From assembly GCA_017480495.1 (NCBI GenBank), contig JAFVAQ010000028.1:1-61606 (forward strand): a DNA stretch of 61,606 nucleotides, in the 5' to 3' direction. Shown piece after piece: positions 18,365 to 35,272 of this stretch (positions are counted from its first letter, which is position 1; each line of letters begins with the position of its first letter). The notes beneath the pieces were generated by a model. That model was not told the DNA's origin. It was given only the letters and a program-made list of their open reading frames with translations, and ran no database searches. A program made the translations under genes and the position numbers. This DNA comes from Eubacterium sp. (GTDB lineage: Bacteria; Bacillota; Clostridia; Lachnospirales; Lachnospiraceae).

Positions 18365-18480
18365 GTTATAGTACAGTGACTTGTCGCCAGATTCTTTGAT
18401 CTTGACATTCGCTCCACGATATTACCTGCTCCTGCAGCAGCAACTACCGCTTCATAGCTATCAATGTCACAGCAAGAGAT

Positions 18481-23788: not shown

Positions 23789-24961
23789 TTATAGTTTACT
23801 GATACCTGATCTCTTTGCCTCGTCAGCAACAGCTTTAGCTACTACCTTTGCAACATTTTCATTGAAAGCATCTGGAATGATATATTCCTCTGACAGTTCA
23901 TCCTCTGAAACAACTGCTGCTATCGCTCTTGCTGCAGCCTCTTTCATAGGCTCTGTTATGGCACTTGCTCTCGCATCCAGCGCACCTCTGAAGATTCCCG
24001 GGAATACCAGAACATTATTGATCTGGTTAGGAAAATCCGAACGTCCTGTTGCTACTATTCTGGCTCCACCAGCCTTTGCCTCATCTGGCATGATTTCTGG
24101 AGTTGGGTTTGCCATAGCGAAAACGATAGGATCGCTTGCCATAGTACGAACCATGTCTGCTGTTACAAGTCCTGGTGCAGAAACTCCGATGAAGATATCC
24201 TTACCCTTAAGAACATCAGCAAGACTTCCACTCTCTTTATCCTTATTTGTTACTGCAGCTATTTCCTGCTTAGCAGGATTAAGTCTAGGATCACCGTCTA
24301 CAAGTGCGCCCTTACTATCTACGAGTACTACATTTCCGAGTCCAAAGCTCTGAAGCAGCTTACAGATGGAGATACCGGCAGAACCAGCACCACTTATAAC
24401 TGCGGAGCAATCCTCCCACTTCTTACCAACTATCTTAAGAGCATTTGTAAGACCAGCAGCAACTACGATTGCTGTACCATGCTGATCATCATGGAATACA
24501 GGAATATCAAGTTCTTCCTTAAGTCTTCTCTCTATCTCGAAACATCTAGGAGCTGAGATATCCTCAAGGTTGATTCCACCAAAGGATGGAGCAAGTCTCT
24601 TAACTGTCTCAATTATTTCTTCTGTATCCTTTGTATCAAGGCAGATAGGAAATGCATCTACATTTCCAAACTTCTTGAAAAGCACTGACTTACCTTCCAT
24701 TACAGGAATGGCTGCAAGTGGTCCTATATCTCCAAGTCCGAGAACTGCTGTACCATCTGAAACTACAGCTACTGTATTAGCCTTCAGAGTATACTTGTAA
24801 GCATCCGCTGGATTCTTGTGAATCTCTCTACAAGGCTCTGCAACGCCTGGGGTATAGGCTGTTGACAGGTCATCCTTGTTCTCCAGCTGCACCTTAAGTG
24901 CCACTTCAAGTTTTCCCTGATTATCCTCGTGCATCTTTAAACTTGCTGCATTGTAATCCAT
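23789..24961 (-). CDS. NAD(P)-dependent malic enzyme (oxaloacetate-decarboxylating)
   Basis: Oxidatively decarboxylates malate to pyruvate, linking C4 acids to the PFOR step. The 390-residue short bacterial form has STAYTPGVAEPCREI with the catalytic Tyr, GDIGPLAAIPVMEGKSVLFK with the catalytic Lys, GGINLEDISAPRCFEIERRL with metal-binding acids, and VFHDDQHGTAIVVAAGLTNA. The dinucleotide fold is VISGAGSAGISICKLL, with Asp in VLVDSKGAL, suggesting NAD preference. No C-terminal phosphotransacetylase-like extension. Confidence 0.93.
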   Translation of the reverse strand: MDYNAASLKMHEDNQGKLEVALKVQLENKDDLSTAYTPGVAEPCREIHKNPADAYKYTLKANTVAVVSDGTAVLGLGDIGPLAAIPVMEGKSVLFKKFGNVDAFPICLDTKDTEEIIETVKRLAPSFGGINLEDISAPRCFEIERRLKEELDIPVFHDDQHGTAIVVAAGLTNALKIVGKKWEDCSAVISGAGSAGISICKLLQSFGLGNVVLVDSKGALVDGDPRLNPAKQEIAAVTNKDKESGSLADVLKGKDIFIGVSAPGLVTADMVRTMASDPIVFAMANPTPEIMPDEAKAGGARIVATGRSDFPNQINNVLVFPGIFRGALDARASAITEPMKEAAARAIAAVVSEDELSEEYIIPDAFNENVAKVVAKAVADEAKRSGISKL

Positions 24962-25050: not shown

Positions 25051-25911
25051 CTAAGCTATATCGAAGATACTTAGCTGGCTTCCGACAGTCTTATTCTCGT
25101 ACTGTCTCTTCCAGGCCTTTATCTTCTGGCTGCTCACCATGATGCCTTTACCCTTACATATGTTTTGCAGGGCCTCCAGCTCTTCCTTCGCATTAGGTGG
25201 AATGAGCTCGCCGGTCTCCTCATAATTATCTGAGAACACCTTATATTCCTTCGGAAATCTCTCTCTAAATTCATTATAGAAGAACTCCCTAACAGACTTC
25301 TTGATAGCGAGTCTATAGTCCATCAGGTCAATCCCAAGTATATCATACTGTACAAGACACTGCACCACTTCTCTGATGTCAGAATCATTTACATATGGTA
25401 TGATAGGCCCCGTTGTTATCAGGACATCTATATCCTGCTTACGGAGCAGGCTTATGAGCCTCAGTCGATCCTGTATGGAAATGACCTCTTCCCCCTCAAT
25501 TAGCCTGAGCTTATTTTCATCGAGAGTCGGAAAGGAAAGCTCGACCACACATTTTGTTTTAGATGTGATTCCCTTCAGAATATCCATATCTCTTTCGATA
25601 AGGTCTCTCTTAGTGGAAATGACAACTCCGTAGTCATTCATCTCTATAACCTTGAGAGCGTTACGGGTCAGACCATATTCCTTTTCCAGTTCATTATATG
25701 GGTCACCCATATTTCCCATCAGGATAATACTCTTATTACGTCTGGTTCTTAGCACTCCAGCAAGAAGCTCAGTAGCATCCACCTTGACTCCTATATCCAT
25801 AGAATCAGCACCTGGAATTTCTGTCAACATTATTGAGTTTTCTGTTCGGCCTCTATATATGTTGAGACCATTTTGTGGTGTAAGAATATTTCTACTCTCT
25901 ATGGTGTACAT
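25051..25911 (-). CDS. SPL-family radical-SAM-fold protein with no cluster cysteines, in the SMC operon
   Basis: The 286-residue protein aligns by eye with SPL-type radical SAM enzymes. The N-terminus NILTPQNGLNIYRG fits that family, normally followed by the CxxxCxxC cluster ligands. Here those positions are Arg22, Ser26 and Leu29 (RTENSIML), confirmed at codon level. The rest is intact: VDVK-like GVKVDATELL, ILMGNMGDPYNELEKEYGLT, VVISTKRDLIERDMDIL, a TTGPIIPYVNDSDI strand, and the C-terminal FRERFPKEY and QLSIFD tail. Without a [4Fe-4S] cluster it cannot do radical chemistry, so it is probably a pseudoenzyme or AdoMet/partner-binding protein. It starts 14 nt after the SMC gene with a GAGG ribosome-binding site, in the slot where Wadjet operons carry the JetD nuclease. 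Confidence 0.8.
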   Translation of the reverse strand: MYTIESRNILTPQNGLNIYRGRTENSIMLTEIPGADSMDIGVKVDATELLAGVLRTRRNKSIILMGNMGDPYNELEKEYGLTRNALKVIEMNDYGVVISTKRDLIERDMDILKGITSKTKCVVELSFPTLDENKLRLIEGEEVISIQDRLRLISLLRKQDIDVLITTGPIIPYVNDSDIREVVQCLVQYDILGIDLMDYRLAIKKSVREFFYNEFRERFPKEYKVFSDNYEETGELIPPNAKEELEALQNICKGKGIMVSSQKIKAWKRQYENKTVGSQLSIFDIA

Positions 25912-25925
25912 CTTTCTGCCTCACA

Positions 25926-28900
25926 TTAAACGAAGTCAAAGGTCTGCTGTGTATAATCCAGATCCTTATATTCGAGTTCCTCACCCTTAGTCTTACTGCT
26001 GTAGTTAACTACTACTGTTGTAGTTCTGTTGCCAGTCATCTGTTGACCAAGAACGTAGTTGATATCAAACTTCGCGGTTATCTCAGGAGTCGCTCCACGG
26101 GCAGGAACGATTAATTGACATTTATTTTCTTCCAGGAGCCTGAAGATAGGTTCCCAGATATATATATCCTTAGCCGCTCCAAATGGGTTATCGATAAAGA
26201 GCGTCTTCGACCTAGTTGTATCCACGATTGAATACATTCCAGATATATAATTGATTATCGAAATCAGGAACTGAATGTATATACCCTGTGACTGTCCTGT
26301 ACTACCTACAGCCTCTTCGTATCTGAGGTATCTGCTCTGCTCCTTGATACGTTCTCTCTTGTAGAGCATCAGTCTAATCTTAGACATATCCGTTACTATT
26401 ACTGAGAAGAGCTTCTTCATAGCAAGACTTCCACTCAGGAACTTCTGTCTGTCGTTATCAGTCTCCTTCTTATCTACCTCTTCAACAACAGAGTCGATAT
26501 ATTCAGACATTCTGTCCTTGATGAATTCATCCTTTACATATGGAATAGAAAGTCTGATCATCTGAACCTTCTCATTCCCCATTGTAATTTCTGACAGCTT
26601 AGTCAGCTTATCCAGCTCAGTTCTGACATCCAGACATCTCTCTACACACTGATCCACGAAGTTATCCTTCAGCTGCTGCATGCTTAAGAGACTCTTCTCT
26701 ACTCTATCTCTTTCAAGGATAATGATCTCGATAACATCTCTCAGTCTCTTCAGAAGCTTCTCTGCCTCGTCTCTATTTTCAGGAATGCTTACATCATCTC
26801 TTATTGAAACCGCAAGCTCCTGAACCTTCATACCTATGAGCGTATCATATACATTCATCTTGACCTTCAGCATATCTGCTCTGGCTCTATCTATATCCTT
26901 AGAAAGTTTGTCGTACTTCATTATCAGGTTGTCGAAATTCTCACTGATATTGTCCATGCTTTCAAGAGGAGCAAGCTCAGATATATTAATGTTATTGGAC
27001 TCAACTATTCTAGTAGCCATACGATTCAGCTCGTCACTACTTCTAGCTGCACTAGCCGCTTTGTCGAGATCTCTCTTTGCTTCTTCGAGGTCACTCTTCA
27101 GCTGCTGTCTCATAGCCCGGAGTTCCTCCACTGATTTAAGATTTCCCTCCTGCTTCTCTTCCCCAATATGAGCAAGTCTCTCAACAGCTTCTGGTCCGAA
27201 CTCAGACTCCAGTCTCTCTTTAGCATACTGAATACTTCCCTCAAGTCTTGCCTTCTCAGTATTTATTCCAGCGAGATCCTTCTCAAGAGCCACTCTGTCC
27301 TGATTCATTTTGCCAAGCTCTTCCTTCATTGTCGCAAGAACCGAATCAGGAACCTTGGTTATGCCAGAACTCTTGTCCTGTTCTTCCAGATCCTTAATAT
27401 CTATTCCGAGTCCTGTTATGACTCTGGTCTGTCTATCTATCGTAGCCTTAAGGGTATCCTCCAGGAGCTTCTCCTTCTCAAGAGATATTCTGCTATCTCC
27501 TGAACCACCAAGAGCTCTATCGAAAGCACTTTCCAGTTCGTCGTCACTTAGATCAAGAGGTGGGAATGGAGTATTATCAACATAGTAAATGCTATACTTA
27601 TTCTCCCATCTATAATCCAGCTCCTGCTTTTCCTGATTAAGACTTTCAACCAGAGATTTCTGCTCCAGAGCTTTAAGCTCCGCACTTCTTATCTCTGAAT
27701 CTATTTCACCCAGTCTCTTATCGAGACTATTTCTCTCACTCTTTAGCTTATCCTTCTTAGAGGAAGCTTCATTTATTCTGTCCTGAAGAGATACAAGGTT
27801 GCTCAGGCTTATCATAGAAGTCTGGTCCTTCTCCATCTTGGCCTTTAGACCTTCCATCTTCTCCTGAAGCTTCTCTATATCTCTCTCCAGCTGGCTACGA
27901 ACATCCGTTTCTTCATTCACGGCCTTCTCGAGGGCATTTCTCTTTTCACTTAATTCCTCGAAGTCTGCTTCTACCGTTGCATAGCCCTTTGCCTTATAAT
28001 TTCTGACAAAGTCCATATCCTCACGAAGAGTTTCGAGCATAGCTTCATTATTCTTCAGCTCTTCTCTATGATTATCTATTTCTGAACCAAGGAGTCTAAG
28101 CTTTGAATCCATAAACTTAGGATCGATAAAGAACTCCTTAGGGCGTCTGATACATTCAACTCCCTCACCAAGAATTAGACCAGTTTCTCCCAGTTCATTC
28201 TTGTCATAGACAAATATCTCCTCGTCTGTATCCAGCTCCATCAGACCTGGATCATTCATAAGTGTACGAATATCCTCGACGATTATTCCATATGCGATTC
28301 CAGGTTCTTTGCTCAGCACCTCAGTTCTCGCAGCTTCTGGAAGAGCGGACAAATAGTCCATACCATACATCGCTGTTATTCCGTGTCTGGTAAAGAGATA
28401 ATCCATCACCTTCTGAACTCCAGGAGTCACATCTATGAGGCGGCCATTTCTTATATCTGCCTCTCTCTTCTCCAGCTTTTCAAGTTCCTGACGAAGCTGA
28501 TAAACCTTTATAACACTACTACTGATTCTATCCTGCAGACTGTCCTCTACATTTTCTGGAGACGCCTCTCTCTCATCAGAATAAATACTGCAGATAGAAG
28601 TATATTTTCCTTTTAGGTTCTTATACTCCGTCAGCTTTTCAGATAGCACCTCGAGTTCAGCCTCAGCTATTCTCTGTTCTGAGATAGATTCCTCGAGCTT
28701 CTTTTCAGACTGAACGAGGTCTGTTTCAAGCTTTTGCTTCTTCTCCGCTAAACTTGATATCTCTTCTTCTTCCTTTCGGATATCTGACTCAATATCTCTC
28801 ATAGAGGATCTAGGATCCATCATCATACCGATGCTTACATCATCTCTAAGGGAGTCCATTTCTTTTTCAAGGAGGGATATATCCTGACTCAGATATTCCA

Positions 28901-30335
28901 GTCTGCTTCCTGCGACAGCCTTCTCTGTTTCGCCTTCATTTCTAGCCTTGCGGAGTTTCTCCACTTCGGTCGTTGCAGCATTTAGAGACTCCTTTAGTGG
29001 AACAAGTCTTGCATCTATATCTGCCTGCTTCTTATCAAGTCTATCTCTGATATTAGCAACAACAGTATAGATATCCTGAGCATCCTTCGGAATATCCTTC
29101 TTCTCCCTTTTAAGAGATTCAAGCTCGGACAGGGAATTCCTTAGTTCCAGATATTCATTCTCTGCAACTCTCTGCTTATATGCCATATCAGTAAGATTTA
29201 TCTCCGACTGAAGCTTACTGATACCAGCAGACTTATGGTCCAGAAGATCATTTCTGGAAGCAAGTTCTTCGATATCTTTATATATCTTAAGTATCTCTAT
29301 AAGTTCATTTGTAGAGCTGAGTTTCTCCTGCGCTTCTTCCATCTTAGCCTGGAGAGCTGCCATTCTATCCTCACGACTCTTCTTCTCATTTTCTAGAGTC
29401 ACAAGTATCTGTCCACACTGAGAAGCCGTTTTCTCCTGCTCAACATATAGCTCCATAAAGGACTCTATTCTATCGATCAGAAGCTGAACCAGTTCCTGCT
29501 CGTGATCATAGAGCTGTATTCCCTTCTTCTTCTCCGCGAGACTCTTCAGCTCCTCCTGAATAGTCATAAGAAGTGAAACAGTACTTTCTGTCTTGTCAGA
29601 CTCTCTCTCTGTTTTAGCTTGATAAGCTTTCTCTATTATTTCCTCTATCAGAAGATCTTCGATTACTCTTCTGGTAGTCTTGTAGTTTGATTCAAAGTAA
29701 GTACGTACGTGTCCCTCGGTTTTATTGATTCCACGGATTATCTCCCAATGACTTTCGTACAGTCCATAGCCCGCGATGAATCTCTGATATTCACCCTTCC
29801 TGTCAAAGATCTGAACTATCAGATTCTTATCATTTCTGGATAGGTCATGTAGATAATTTCTGAGAGCCTTGTAGGATATTCTCTCATTATCCTTTACGAG
29901 AGGAAGATTCACGATATCATTCTTGTTATAGTCGCGATAGAAGATAACATAGTTGAAATACTCTATCTGAGCAGTTCCGTCCTCTCTATCCTCTTCGGTC
30001 GTTGCGGCCTTTCTGGCAGCAAAGCCTGTTGTCATATATCGCATTCCCTCTTTGATATCCACATCATCGAGCTTCCATTCGATCAGGGAATGTATAACAG
30101 TATTGCTTGGATCTCTGAAGAGCTTCTCAATAGGCTGCTTATCATCCAGTGTACTGTTAGGTATCAGATTCTGCATAAGGAGAAGCATGAGCACACTCTT
30201 ACCACCACCATTTGCTAGATCGTAGAGGGTATTTCTTCCATACATTCTCATAGAGAAATCATCATAGCTCTGAGTACCGAAGTTATACTTAACATTATTT
30301 ACTCTTATACGATTAATACTAGGCATCTGATTCAC
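25926..30335 (-). CDS. JetC/MukB-like SMC coiled-coil ATPase
   Basis: A 1469-residue SMC-type ATPase. An N-terminal Walker A LYDLANGGGKS (K46) is followed by long heptad coiled coil (about 230-620). A hinge-like globular segment of about 130 residues contains HGITAMYGMDYLSALPEAAR, a second coiled coil follows, and the C-terminal head has signature STGQSQG (about 1345) and Walker B TLFIDNPFG (about 1382). The residue after the Walker B Asp is Asn rather than the usual Glu. I recall DNPFG in related type III JetC proteins, so this may be a family trait. The gene overlaps the jetB-like gene by 17 nt. A loop-extruding DNA-sensing role is inferred from the family. Confidence 0.85.
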   Translation of the reverse strand: MNQMPSINRIRVNNVKYNFGTQSYDDFSMRMYGRNTLYDLANGGGKSVLMLLLMQNLIPNSTLDDKQPIEKLFRDPSNTVIHSLIEWKLDDVDIKEGMRYMTTGFAARKAATTEEDREDGTAQIEYFNYVIFYRDYNKNDIVNLPLVKDNERISYKALRNYLHDLSRNDKNLIVQIFDRKGEYQRFIAGYGLYESHWEIIRGINKTEGHVRTYFESNYKTTRRVIEDLLIEEIIEKAYQAKTERESDKTESTVSLLMTIQEELKSLAEKKKGIQLYDHEQELVQLLIDRIESFMELYVEQEKTASQCGQILVTLENEKKSREDRMAALQAKMEEAQEKLSSTNELIEILKIYKDIEELASRNDLLDHKSAGISKLQSEINLTDMAYKQRVAENEYLELRNSLSELESLKREKKDIPKDAQDIYTVVANIRDRLDKKQADIDARLVPLKESLNAATTEVEKLRKARNEGETEKAVAGSRLEYLSQDISLLEKEMDSLRDDVSIGMMMDPRSSMRDIESDIRKEEEEISSLAEKKQKLETDLVQSEKKLEESISEQRIAEAELEVLSEKLTEYKNLKGKYTSICSIYSDEREASPENVEDSLQDRISSSVIKVYQLRQELEKLEKREADIRNGRLIDVTPGVQKVMDYLFTRHGITAMYGMDYLSALPEAARTEVLSKEPGIAYGIIVEDIRTLMNDPGLMELDTDEEIFVYDKNELGETGLILGEGVECIRRPKEFFIDPKFMDSKLRLLGSEIDNHREELKNNEAMLETLREDMDFVRNYKAKGYATVEADFEELSEKRNALEKAVNEETDVRSQLERDIEKLQEKMEGLKAKMEKDQTSMISLSNLVSLQDRINEASSKKDKLKSERNSLDKRLGEIDSEIRSAELKALEQKSLVESLNQEKQELDYRWENKYSIYYVDNTPFPPLDLSDDELESAFDRALGGSGDSRISLEKEKLLEDTLKATIDRQTRVITGLGIDIKDLEEQDKSSGITKVPDSVLATMKEELGKMNQDRVALEKDLAGINTEKARLEGSIQYAKERLESEFGPEAVERLAHIGEEKQEGNLKSVEELRAMRQQLKSDLEEAKRDLDKAASAARSSDELNRMATRIVESNNINISELAPLESMDNISENFDNLIMKYDKLSKDIDRARADMLKVKMNVYDTLIGMKVQELAVSIRDDVSIPENRDEAEKLLKRLRDVIEIIILERDRVEKSLLSMQQLKDNFVDQCVERCLDVRTELDKLTKLSEITMGNEKVQMIRLSIPYVKDEFIKDRMSEYIDSVVEEVDKKETDNDRQKFLSGSLAMKKLFSVIVTDMSKIRLMLYKRERIKEQSRYLRYEEAVGSTGQSQGIYIQFLISIINYISGMYSIVDTTRSKTLFIDNPFGAAKDIYIWEPIFRLLEENKCQLIVPARGATPEITAKFDINYVLGQQMTGNRTTTVVVNYSSKTKGEELEYKDLDYTQQTFDFV

Positions 30336-31032
30336 CTCCGTTCAGTTCGGCGAAGATGGCGCTGCCATTATCCTCGAAATAGTTTTCTGCAATTGCATGG
30401 AATCTATCGGTAGGATATAGTCTGTCGTCAATCACAGTAAATATCCCTTCAGTATTCATGAAGTTGCTAGCCAGCTTAACAAAGCCCACGCGGGAACCAC
30501 GAGAAGCCTTATTTCTATCCTTATCCTCAGATATCATTGGAGGAAGCGAATCCCACAGAAGCGCAACAGCCTTGAAGGAGCTGTCATTTGTATCATCTGT
30601 GCTATATACATTTATGTCTCCACTGATTCTGCTAAGCTCACGACTTACTGATTCTATTATCTCATCAACTCTGACATAGTCCTTAACCTGATAAGTGTCA
30701 GAGGTTTTGTAGAACTGGAGCAATGTTTCATAAACTATGAAATAAACAAGGTAGAGTTCCTTGTTGAGTCTGAGCCCCAGATTTCTCTTCAACTCATCAT
30801 TTGTATATCCAAAGACTTTATTTCCACTACCCGCTGTAACGAAGATGGACTCATTATATTCATAGAGCTTCAGATTGAGTCTATCCAGCAGACCAACAAC
30901 TGTGTCATAAACCTCGGAATCAGAGTAGAAAGAGTTATAGAGCTCGCTGGTTTCCTTATCCTTAGAAGATATACTTTTTCCAGACGCGAGCACGCTATAT
31001 ATATCAAGTGCTTTCTCAAGTGATTTCTCCAT
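30319..31032 (-). CDS. JetB/MukE-like KITE subunit (DUF6063-like)
   Basis: A 237-residue soluble protein between the JetA-like and SMC genes, the usual position for the KITE subunit that bridges kleisin and ATPase. Visible features: an N-terminal helical stretch, KVFGYTNDELKRNLGLRLNK, LYLVYFIVYETLLQFY, and a winged-helix-like C-terminal half ending in TVIDDRLYPTDRFHAIAENY. No enzymatic motif. The start overlaps the preceding stop by one base, and the end overlaps the SMC gene by 17 nt, which implies translational coupling and a stoichiometric complex. The family name comes from memory and context. Confidence 0.7.
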   Translation of the reverse strand: MEKSLEKALDIYSVLASGKSISSKDKETSELYNSFYSDSEVYDTVVGLLDRLNLKLYEYNESIFVTAGSGNKVFGYTNDELKRNLGLRLNKELYLVYFIVYETLLQFYKTSDTYQVKDYVRVDEIIESVSRELSRISGDINVYSTDDTNDSSFKAVALLWDSLPPMISEDKDRNKASRGSRVGFVKLASNFMNTEGIFTVIDDRLYPTDRFHAIAENYFEDNGSAIFAELNGGESDA

Positions 31033-32588
31033 CAGTCCATCCTCCTTTCATCTATTCTCACGAATGTCATATCTGTTATCTCGCCTATCTCGCCAGAATC
31101 CTCAAGTTCCAGTTTGATAGTATCAGTTCCAAAATGTATCTCAAAGGCCATATCAGCAAATTCGTCCAGCTGATCCGGAGATATATACTCCGCCACCATT
31201 CCTTCGAGGAAGGTTTCAGCATTTTCTCTTATATCCTTTATGCTGTAATGCTCCTTGCCAGCAAGGTGCGTCATGAAGGAATAATAATCTCTATTCTTAT
31301 AAATATCAGCCGCGAACTTGACCTCGAGTATCGCATTATATTCTTCAAGCGTAACCTTCTCCCATCTCTTCAGTCTTCCGACTAATTCGAGGAAGAGCTT
31401 AGCGAAGTTTCTTCCTGTATTCTCCGTCAGGATTTCATCCTCGTACCGGAAGCTTAGATCCGCCTTTACTTCTTCTCTTGTCTCACCCTTCAGAGATTCT
31501 GTTGTTTTCTGAAGGACTATGTTATCGATAGTTGCGATGGCGAGGGACTTGTGTCTCTTCGGAAGCAGGAAAGGATTGATCATATTCATGAGGGCATCGA
31601 GCCTGTCTTCCTTTATCATTCTTCCAAGAGTTGCTTCGTAGTCATAGGAAACTCGTAGGCTTCTCGTTCTGCTGCGTCTTACCATTTCATCAGAGAACCT
31701 GGACAGCTCCGCCGTTGCCGCGATAAGAGCACTGTGACTCTCAATCGTTTGCTTCAGCATTGTCTGAAGAGAAGTTATATCGCGAGCAGTCTTCGTATCT
31801 CCACCGTAGGTAAGTCTTGCAACCGCCTTATCCACCAGCTCTCTATTTCTAGCAAAGGACTTACGCTCCTCAGCAAACCAGACAGAAGTCTGATCCATAT
31901 ATTCGTCTACCGCCTTCGTACCAGCGTGGACGTCTGTAAGTAGGAGCTGAACTACTTCTTCTCTCTTTTTCTCCAGAGCCTTAACTTCGATATTGATTCT
32001 CTGGATCACATCCATACTTCCACTAAAGTTTTCAGACTTGATCAGTTTCTCGAGCAGGAGCTGATCCATGTTGATGCGGCTCTCATCACGAACTTCCTTA
32101 GTAGATAGATAAAACTCTATTCCATCCTCGGTGATGCTATAAACAACCTCGTCGGCTTTTACATTACTATCTATCAGCCTGACTCTCGCCACCTTCTCCT
32201 TCCTGTCAGCAGGATCAAAGAATGTGAACTCGAAAGCCTTTCCATAGTTGCGTAGCTTGTCGAAGATATATCTTACAAGTTCATCTATATCTTCCTTGGT
32301 ATTATCCTCATCCACTCTTATATCAAAATCTCTACTCAGAAGTTTAGAGCAGAAATCCTTATAACCTATGTATGTAACAGGACTATCGTTGAAGCTATTC
32401 TCATTTATAAAGTATCTCAGAACAGCAAGAGTTATATACCCCATATCAAGAGACTTATATCTGCCCTCTTTATACTGGCTGAAGGTACTTTCTGACAGCA
32501 CAAAAAAAGGATAGAATTTCCTTAGATTGAGTATACGCTCATAGTGATTTTTAATTATGTCATCAATCAGTGTAAACTGCTCTGCCAT
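31032..32588 (-). CDS. JetA/MukF-like kleisin subunit (DUF5716-like)
   Basis: First gene of the SMC operon, 518 residues. The N-terminal half looks like tandem winged helices (FTLIDDIIKNHYERILNLRK, DMGYITLAVLRYFINENSFN, then TEDGIEFYLSTKEVRDESRI). A long helical middle follows (about 190-330, including EVKALEKKREEVVQLLLTDV), and then a C-terminal globular region. The segment FYLSTKEVRDESRINMDQLL matches what I recall of JetA-family kleisins. The ATG at 32588 follows GGTGGAG; a GTG 15 nt upstream is possible. An extended -10 promoter lies about 70 nt upstream. Confidence 0.7.
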   Translation of the reverse strand: MAEQFTLIDDIIKNHYERILNLRKFYPFFVLSESTFSQYKEGRYKSLDMGYITLAVLRYFINENSFNDSPVTYIGYKDFCSKLLSRDFDIRVDEDNTKEDIDELVRYIFDKLRNYGKAFEFTFFDPADRKEKVARVRLIDSNVKADEVVYSITEDGIEFYLSTKEVRDESRINMDQLLLEKLIKSENFSGSMDVIQRINIEVKALEKKREEVVQLLLTDVHAGTKAVDEYMDQTSVWFAEERKSFARNRELVDKAVARLTYGGDTKTARDITSLQTMLKQTIESHSALIAATAELSRFSDEMVRRSRTRSLRVSYDYEATLGRMIKEDRLDALMNMINPFLLPKRHKSLAIATIDNIVLQKTTESLKGETREEVKADLSFRYEDEILTENTGRNFAKLFLELVGRLKRWEKVTLEEYNAILEVKFAADIYKNRDYYSFMTHLAGKEHYSIKDIRENAETFLEGMVAEYISPDQLDEFADMAFEIHFGTDTIKLELEDSGEIGEITDMTFVRIDERRMD

Positions 32589-32655
32589 AGCTCCACCCGA
32601 CACAAGTTTTTTCTAGATTTCTATGCTGATTTTTCCAGTCCGCATAGACTTCTAT

Positions 32656-34350: not shown

Positions 34351-34387
34351 ATAATCAAGATAAATGTTATATAAAGGAGGGCAAATT

Positions 34388-35272
34388 ATGGATACTATGA
34401 CCATCGAACAAATGAATAAAACAAAAGACGAACTCGGTCTGACATATAGAAAAATATCTGAACTCTCCGGGGTTCCATTTAGTACTGTCCAGAAGGTATT
34501 AGGCGGTATCACGCCCTCACCAAGATATAGTACAGTTAAAGCTCTGAGTGACGTACTCCTTTATGAATCCAGAAAAAACAATCCCTATGCCACCTATCAT
34601 TACTCTAACTACAAATATGGAGAAAAACCTGAAAAAGATAAAGAACTAGTTGAACTCGTAGAAGAAGCATCGCCCTTTTTGGTTCATGGTTCAAATGCAC
34701 CACTAAATAAAGATTACTTCACTGTTGAGGATTATAATAATCTTGGTGACGACAGAAGAACTGAGCTAATAAATGGTGTTTTCTACGACATGGCACCCCC
34801 AACAATAGAACACCAATTGATCGTCGGCCGAATATGGGCTGCATTTTCTAATTTCATCGCTAAAAGCAAAGGCAAATGCCTTCCAGTGATGGCCCCATTT
34901 GATGTTCAAATAAAGGACGACGATTTTAATATGGTAGAACCTGACGTGATGATTATATGCGACAAGAATAAGTTGTGCAACAACTATGTAGTCGGCGCTC
35001 CCGATCTTGTTGTGGAAGTTGTATCTAAGTCCTCCATATCTCACGATAAGATAAGGAAACTTAACCTCTACTACGAATCAAAGGTCCGAGAATATTGGAT
35101 AGTCGATCCAACAGAAAATGAGATCCTTGTATACGATTTTTCAGAGAGTGATTTCAAAAAATACAGTTATACCTTTGAGGATAAAGTTCCAGTTAGTATT
35201 TATGATAATAAACTCAAAATCGATTTCAAGGAAATAAGGACATATGTTGAAAACATGATCAGAAATGAGTAA
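34388..35272 (+). CDS. HTH-Uma2 fusion protein (PD-(D/E)XK nuclease fold)
   Basis: A 294-residue protein. Residues about 5-60 form a helix-turn-helix (YRKISELSGVPFSTVQKVLG). The rest is a Uma2/DUF820 domain: FTVEDYNNLGDDRRTELING, MAPPTIEHQLIVGRIWAAF, MVEPDVMIICDKNKL and GAPDLVVEVVSKSSISHDKI, with the Asp and Glu-x-Val-x-Lys pattern of the PD-(D/E)XK fold apparently intact. It ends after a predicted wHTH-like tail. The ATG at 34388 follows AAAGGAGGG. The stop codon TAA lies inside a REP-like repeat. Uma2 proteins are common and abundant, but their role is poorly defined. Confidence 0.85.
   Translation: MDTMTIEQMNKTKDELGLTYRKISELSGVPFSTVQKVLGGITPSPRYSTVKALSDVLLYESRKNNPYATYHYSNYKYGEKPEKDKELVELVEEASPFLVHGSNAPLNKDYFTVEDYNNLGDDRRTELINGVFYDMAPPTIEHQLIVGRIWAAFSNFIAKSKGKCLPVMAPFDVQIKDDDFNMVEPDVMIICDKNKLCNNYVVGAPDLVVEVVSKSSISHDKIRKLNLYYESKVREYWIVDPTENEILVYDFSESDFKKYSYTFEDKVPVSIYDNKLKIDFKEIRTYVENMIRNE

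Follow-up and report, generated by a model that had tools for sequence, protein, structure and literature searches.

Wadjet systems of type III (JetABCD) combine a kleisin (JetA), a KITE protein (JetB) and an ATPase of the structural maintenance of chromosomes (SMC) class (JetC) with the nuclease JetD, and the condensins MukBEF and MksBEF likewise unite SMC, kleisin and KITE subunits, without a nuclease. One review (PMC10586767) calls an origin of MukBEF, and likely of MksBEF, from Wadjet a "tempting" speculation and leaves it unresolved, and regards MksBEF of Pseudomonas aeruginosa as a likely product of JetD loss from Wadjet. Here we describe an operon from a 61,606-nucleotide contig of Eubacterium sp. 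(JAFVAQ010000028.1, assembly GCA_017480495.1; family Lachnospiraceae), the whole of which is hereafter termed the window. This operon encodes JetA-, JetB- and JetC-like proteins, has no JetD, and carries at its 3' end a fourth gene (gene 4) derived from radical S-adenosylmethionine (SAM) proteins, an arrangement nearly fixed in the genus. We hold, with moderate confidence, that it specifies an SMC complex that descends from Wadjet type III, lacks a nuclease and is inherited vertically, together with a non-catalytic and possibly clamp-docking gene 4 product. Searches of the open-access literature yielded nothing relevant on JetABC with a radical SAM protein, on Wadjet with the sliding clamp or DnaN, or on MksBEF or Wadjet in Lachnospiraceae.

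A preliminary description of the window had recognized kleisin-, KITE- and SMC-like proteins in the layout of Wadjet operons, encoded by four tightly coupled minus-strand genes of which the last specified a radical-SAM-fold protein, and our analysis bears this out. The genes, with one motif of JetC, are:

31032..32588, minus strand: operon gene 1, JetA-like kleisin of 518 residues (PADLOC JetA3 PDLC00560, 1.4e-177, 590 bits)
30319..31032, minus strand: JetB-like KITE protein (DUF6063) of 237 residues (PADLOC JetB3 PDLC00571, 1.8e-86, 288 bits; PF19539, 5.7e-43)
25926..30335, minus strand: JetC-like SMC ATPase of 1469 residues (PADLOC JetC3 PDLC00581, E=0, 1516 bits)
30195..30209, minus strand: Walker A motif of JetC, GGGKS, by motif reading
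25051..25911, minus strand: gene 4, a PA0069/Rv2578c-like radical-SAM-fold pseudoenzyme of 286 residues, by profile searches and lost cysteines

Successive genes are joined by a 1-bp overlap, a 17-bp overlap and a 14-bp gap, the second of these shrinking to 8 bp if JetC begins at a conserved ATG at 30326, its alternative start; JetA is read from an ATG at 32588, with an alternative open GTG start at 32603. The PADLOC matches place homologues of JetA3, JetB3 and JetC3 in a single operon, in the A-B-C order of Wadjet type III, and the operonic JetD nuclease is the one missing component. JetC is of type III, scoring 1516 bits against JetC3 versus 22 and 8 against the JetC2 and JetC1 (MukB-like) models, which sets it apart from MukBEF and MksBEF. 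Its ATPase motifs are intact: besides Walker A it has the Walker B motif IDNPFG, identical in the JetD-bearing locus L076, and the motif GSTGQSQG. A lost catalytic glutamate (DN rather than DE in Walker B) was considered and rejected; since the JetD-bearing type III proteins compared share the same DN, it is not the mark of a dead ATPase. The gene set is thus that of a nuclease-free SMC system, with SMC, kleisin and KITE genes, intact ATPase motifs and no nuclease. No Pfam family passes its cut-off with JetA, and against profiles of solved structures JetC recovered coiled-coil proteins only and JetA nothing below 0.03. Promoter and terminator scans gave nothing above chance level.

We then considered JetD at three scales. 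The window contains no nuclease gene of this kind, as had been stated earlier: the JetD_C family (PF09983) has no match in it or elsewhere in its own genome, which is 66% complete. Among 61 genomes of the genus, the window's own included, JetC (counted at >=190 bits) occurs in 54, and JetD_C in 11 (one below cut-off), 10 of which are among those 54. In every case it lies on a different contig from the operon or, in the one-contig genome G002, more than 1 Mb away. With JetD_C in only 10 of the 54 JetC-bearing genomes, the possibility that a JetD elsewhere in the genome always accompanies this JetABC clade falls away. The two such unlinked loci that were read (L087, L088) are four-gene clusters of their own, of type-I-like size. 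Across the family (397 genomes from 334 genera), we distinguished 50 loci with a close JetC (>=990 bits) from 28 places with a distant kind (87-190 bits). A JetD_C match is found no more than 5 kb 5' of JetC at 25 of the 28 distant places versus none of the 50 close loci. In the close clade it is absent from every operon contig (0/50) and present somewhere in the genome in 13/50, and at least 1.2 kb is visible 5' of JetA in 46 of the 50 loci (44/48 outside the genus). An undetected JetD beside JetA was examined as a candidate and rejected: on that side stand recR and a variety of other genes, and JetD-seeded as well as PF09983 searches were negative, with 4/48 family loci too short on the 5' side to judge. 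An N-terminal motif of JetB, tried as a trace of JetD contact, proved uninformative on inspection.

The relative position of the nuclease gene is also instructive. In the distant, JetD-bearing type III loci JetD stands first in 18 of the 20 read (order JetD-JetA-JetB-JetC); in type I systems, such as mksFEBG of C. glutamicum, the JetD-type nuclease gene comes last, according to PMC10123090. The earlier statement that gene 4 occupies the position of JetD is therefore inexact, as gene 4 lies at the 3' end and JetD of the related type III loci at the 5' end.

Gene 4 shows profile similarity to the radical SAM superfamily, scoring 3e-6 (28 bits) against the Pfam model, slightly below its cut-off of 29.5, and 2.7e-27 (96 bits; equivalog cut-off 360) against the NCBIfam PA0069 family NF033668. 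The NCBIfam Rv2578c family gives 1.3e-18, far below its equivalog cut-off. The likeness to PA0069/Rv2578c proteins spans residues 39-245, and a GxxxDPY region is invariant, or almost so, both in proteins with the cluster cysteines and in those without them. The protein is presumably related to the spore photoproduct lyase radical SAM proteins. Profiles of solved structures gave weak matches only, the best (0.0073) to an unrelated-looking protein and one (E 0.019) to the radical SAM protein SkfB. What the preliminary description overlooked is that gene 4 departs from these relatives in lacking the CxxxCxxC cluster motif, all three iron-sulfur cysteines being lost:

25825..25848, minus strand: former [4Fe-4S] site of gene 4, with C-x3-C-x2-C replaced by R22, S26 and L29 (YRGRTENSIML)

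The cysteines are retained (YRGCSHGCIYC) in a free paralogue elsewhere in the genome (G000:C26), as well as in paralogues in other genomes. None of the 56 genus genomes examined for the gene 4 sequence, 51 with the gene next to JetC and five without JetABC, has CxxxCxxC in it, although single cysteines remain in some copies. As the cluster ligands are lost, gene 4 should be incapable of radical SAM chemistry. The operon copies also share a C-terminal signature, RxYxN...G.Q, that is absent from the free paralogues compared. MT838272.1 (H2), a record of 5.5 kb from human faeces that is labelled as phage and carries no annotation, was also noticed to hold a full-length homologue with 28.7% identity.

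Loss of JetD and of the gene 4 cysteines might in principle mark the operon as what is left of a Wadjet system in decay, gene 4 being a dead passenger. We regard this as very improbable, because gene 4 persists as an open frame in 56 genus genomes, the ATPase motifs of JetC are intact, and the ratio of nonsynonymous to synonymous substitution rates (dN/dS) is low for both genes. This ratio is 0.02-0.12 for gene 4 in 19 of 21 pairs (those with finite dS; 8 have dS <1 and the remainder are partly saturated) and 0.04-0.18 for JetC in 11 pairs, the former indicating that gene 4 is maintained by purifying selection.

Gene 4 is consistently linked to JetABC. In 51 of the 54 JetC-bearing genus genomes it follows JetC immediately, on its 3' side and in the same orientation, and in the other three JetC reaches the contig end; hence it is no random neighbour confined to one genome. 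The locus is syntenic, with FBA often upstream and downstream a conserved flank that stands outside the system and is close to gene 4 in most genus loci read:

23789..24961, minus strand: malic enzyme (Pfam malic, 1.2e-33)

We compared the junctions of which both genes lay inside the retrieved stretch (flanks of 1.5 to 10 kb; duplicate genomes dropped), separating loci by whether gene 4 has the cysteines. The gap between JetC and gene 4 exceeds 300 bp in 0/19 loci with cysteines and 0/51 without, whereas that between gene 4 and the malic enzyme does so in 14/19 and 4/48, respectively, with as many as three extra genes inserted; the FBA-JetA junction has likewise been opened by other genes. A mirror-tree comparison of 46 loci, again excluding duplicate genomes, gave a partial correlation of 0.84 between gene 4 and JetC given the malic enzyme, against -0.06 between gene 4 and the malic enzyme given JetC, the value for JetA and JetC being 0.92. 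At the same junction, a small gene between gene 4 and the malic enzyme was noted in one locus (L138:5051-5326, 91 residues, no Pfam match); its homologues occupy this locus even in the absence of gene 4 (L139) or of JetABC (L072-L074).

Phylogenetic trees point to an order of events. A FastTree phylogeny of JetC (88 rows, with long branches flagged and 11 genus loci thinned out) places the JetD-bearing L076, from another family, beside 62 JetD-less rows (support 91, not starred). Within these, the 19 rows from the malic-enzyme locus are monophyletic (100, starred), and the 15 cysteine-less rows form a nested clade (99, starred). In the gene 4 tree (68 rows, IQ-TREE; 22 loci thinned out), the operon copies form one clade (100/99, starred), from which the cysteine-bearing ones branch first and inside which the cysteine-less ones form a single clade (97/82, starred). 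Cysteine-intact gene 4 proteins occur in the same operon of sister genera, namely in L138, L145 and L170 of the family survey and in 18 of 80 loci from further relatives (kept from 317 found in a genome scan; L201 and L212 duplicate the genomes of L138 and L145), giving 19 non-redundant proteins in total. On this evidence JetD appears to have been lost first, and the JetD-less JetABC clade of Lachnospiraceae is, by these trees, wider and older than its association with gene 4. As far as the trees hold, gene 4 joined the operon with an intact motif, and the ligands were lost later, in the Eubacterium ruminantium group, the window's genus. The proposal that a radical SAM gene had replaced JetD is consequently unsupported: the gene 4 subclade is surrounded by a wider and older JetD-less clade, mostly without such a gene, and gene 4 lies at the opposite end of the operon.

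The C-termini of gene 4 and JetC suggest a further connection. According to PMC12309361, the consensus for binding the sliding clamp is QL[S/D]LF or QxxLF, with PolC bearing QLSLF at its C-terminus, and PMC4549789 reports C-terminal QLxLF in transposases. Two features of the window resemble these:

25063..25077, minus strand: QLSIF, a clamp-binding-like motif near the C-terminus of gene 4 (the protein ends QLSIFDIA)
25932..25949, minus strand: QQTFDF, the C-terminal tail of JetC, hexapeptide clamp-binding-like and weakly canonical, by tail pattern

Gene 4 thus ends much as PolC does, and the JetC tail of this clade is less canonical and hexapeptide-like. With near-identical tails removed, a canonical pattern (Q[LMI][SDTN][LIM]F within the last 14 residues) occurs in 23/55 cysteine-less and 16/19 cysteine-bearing operon gene 4 proteins and in 18/24 free paralogues, as against 0/618 background genes, 0/140 JetA and 0/151 JetB. 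JetC tails of the JetD-less loci are QxxFDF-like, fitting a loose pentapeptide-or-hexapeptide pattern in 111 of 120 cases (13.8 in shuffled sequences), while QxxLF-like tails are seen in 19 of 25 JetD-bearing or other JetC proteins (2.5 shuffled) and in neither of two type-I-like ones. These counts are not independent, because the sequences are related. Together, the gene 4 and JetC tails suggest that both proteins may dock on the DnaN sliding clamp. Elsewhere in the order, in families beyond this one, free PA0069/Rv2578c-like proteins (L126, L127, L128, L130) also have QLSLF-like ends, as if the family acted on the sliding clamp.

The distribution of the operon bears on whether it still acts in plasmid or phage defence, with gene 4 or an unlinked nuclease as effector. 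Such a role would agree with the Wadjet type III ancestry and with the unlinked JetD_C of 10 of the 54 JetC-bearing genus genomes. We nevertheless judge it improbable: the other 44 genomes (some incomplete) are without a JetD_C match, and both of the unlinked JetD loci examined sit in clusters of their own. Gene 4 has neither a cluster site nor any other family match pointing to a nuclease. The presence of JetC in 54/61 genomes seems denser than would be expected of a patchy defence system, and just one of 72,556 plasmid records has a match, covering 16% of JetC. Outside the genus, 16 of 69 Jet loci (L131-L200) have recR immediately 5' of JetA and 20 have it within three genes, mostly in the order dnaX-ybaB-recR (e.g. 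L131, L132, L134, L135, L137); this context and the conserved locus of the Eubacterium ruminantium group have the appearance of chromosomal inheritance. At 36 of the same 69 loci, JetC is followed a few genes or less downstream by a gene of 750-1160 residues with a TPR-like region, which was considered as a dedicated Jet partner; as 144 of 150 family genomes have a homologue, only 33 of them with a type III JetC, it is a core gene and not a Jet subunit.

Several observations weigh against the reading of JetABC as a vertically inherited SMC complex with gene 4 as its partner: 1) Five of the 61 genus genomes have, at the malic-enzyme locus, a gene 4 without the cysteines, and no JetABC was found in them (of the seven without JetC, the remaining two have neither), and these JetABC-less copies fall at two places in the gene 4 tree. 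2) Genome G168, of another genus, has JetABC at the malic-enzyme locus without gene 4, so that neither strictly requires the other. 3) Adjacency alone is weak evidence, because the locus is syntenic. 4) The mirror-tree contrast is weaker among the 27 cysteine-less loci (0.68 vs 0.29), and its control, the malic enzyme, is a single slow gene and hence thin. 5) Of the 50 loci without JetD, 4 show no JetA or less than 1.2 kb 5' of it, and the tree puts one of these, the truncated and long-branched L150, outside the JetD-less clade. 6) The window's own genome is incomplete, to the degree given above. 7) Only 1/120 JetD-less JetC tails is canonical, and QxxLF-like ones number 12 versus 7.6 in shuffled sequences. 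8) The JetABC clade is present in only 50/397 family genomes and is therefore no universal housekeeping complex. 9) ScpA, the retention of which distinguishes the genus from the MukBEF/MksBEF situation, is found in five of the six genomes of the genus examined for it, the exception being the window's incomplete genome. On the last two counts, JetABC is an extra and not the sole SMC complex.

The first and third of these points lend themselves to another explanation, namely that gene 4 is a neighbour with a job of its own, a clamp-bound, non-catalytic relative of DNA-repair-like radical SAM proteins that merely shares a transcript and an inherited synteny with JetABC. The five genomes retaining gene 4 alone would fit this, as would the low dN/dS between two JetABC-less copies (L072/L074, 0.041 at dS 1.65), the equally conserved malic enzyme and FBA flanks, and the tail motif shared by the free paralogues. 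What makes us consider it an unlikely, if serious, competitor is that the JetC-gene 4 junction has stayed short while those on either side of the four-gene unit were opened by other genes, that gene 4 distances track JetC and not the malic enzyme, and that the RxYxN...G.Q signature of the operon copies is absent from the free paralogues compared.

With gene 4 read as a partner of JetABC, the following picture may be drawn. The families, the cysteine loss, the linkage, the selection, the tails and, within the reach of the trees, the succession of events are read from sequence; the complex, its chromosomal function and the non-catalytic, clamp-docking role are inferred. The JetA kleisin, JetB KITE protein and JetC SMC ATPase would form a nuclease-free chromosomal complex in part of Lachnospiraceae. 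Gene 4 would be a former PA0069/Rv2578c-type radical SAM enzyme turned co-inherited accessory protein, most likely serving in binding or as an adaptor. If its tail and that of JetC do dock on DnaN, then JetABC would act on newly replicated or damaged DNA. Of the three roles originally offered for this operon, the best match is that of a housekeeping-like condensin to which a new accessory subunit has been added, and a replacement of JetD by gene 4 is not supported. A bolder version, possible if somewhat doubtful, is that a defence SMC system was domesticated into a replication-linked chromosome complex, tied to the clamp by the tails of JetC and of its partner; the latter would once have been a clamp-bound radical SAM enzyme, probably of DNA repair, and would now be an adaptor or lesion reader in one genus. 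In broader terms, the findings suggest that in a gut and rumen bacterium a DNA-looping machine related to a plasmid-killing defence system was turned to normal chromosome upkeep.

Were this correct, the operon would offer a stepwise record of an SMC complex passing from defence to housekeeping, with an SMC partner of a kind unreported within the literature searched. Candidate steps persist in living genera, from JetD-bearing type III systems, through JetD-less JetABC at conserved loci and the gain of a radical SAM partner, to loss of the cluster with retention of the protein. The question of condensin origins from defence systems thereby becomes testable in cultured strains such as Eubacterium ruminantium ATCC 17233. 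A note of caution also follows: a JetABC match from a model built to detect defence systems need not denote Wadjet. There is, further, a lead that in Clostridia the radical SAM proteins of PA0069/Rv2578c type may act on the sliding clamp.

Some minor observations may be added. In one genome, a four-gene cluster of type-I-like size with a JetD_C match lies about 110 bp 5' of a free cysteine-bearing radical SAM paralogue, and in a second a similar cluster is found within 8 kb of the free paralogue (L087:1893-9883 in G011; L088:768-15971 in G043), which may point to a hot spot for insertions or to another Jet/radical SAM link. Within the window, about 1.8 kb beyond JetA, a plus-strand gene at 34364-35272 encodes a weak helix-turn-helix-like N-terminus joined to a putative endonuclease domain of the Uma2 type, and positions 18381-18463 match the S10-Clostridia ribosomal protein leader RNA (Rfam RF03136, 63 bits).

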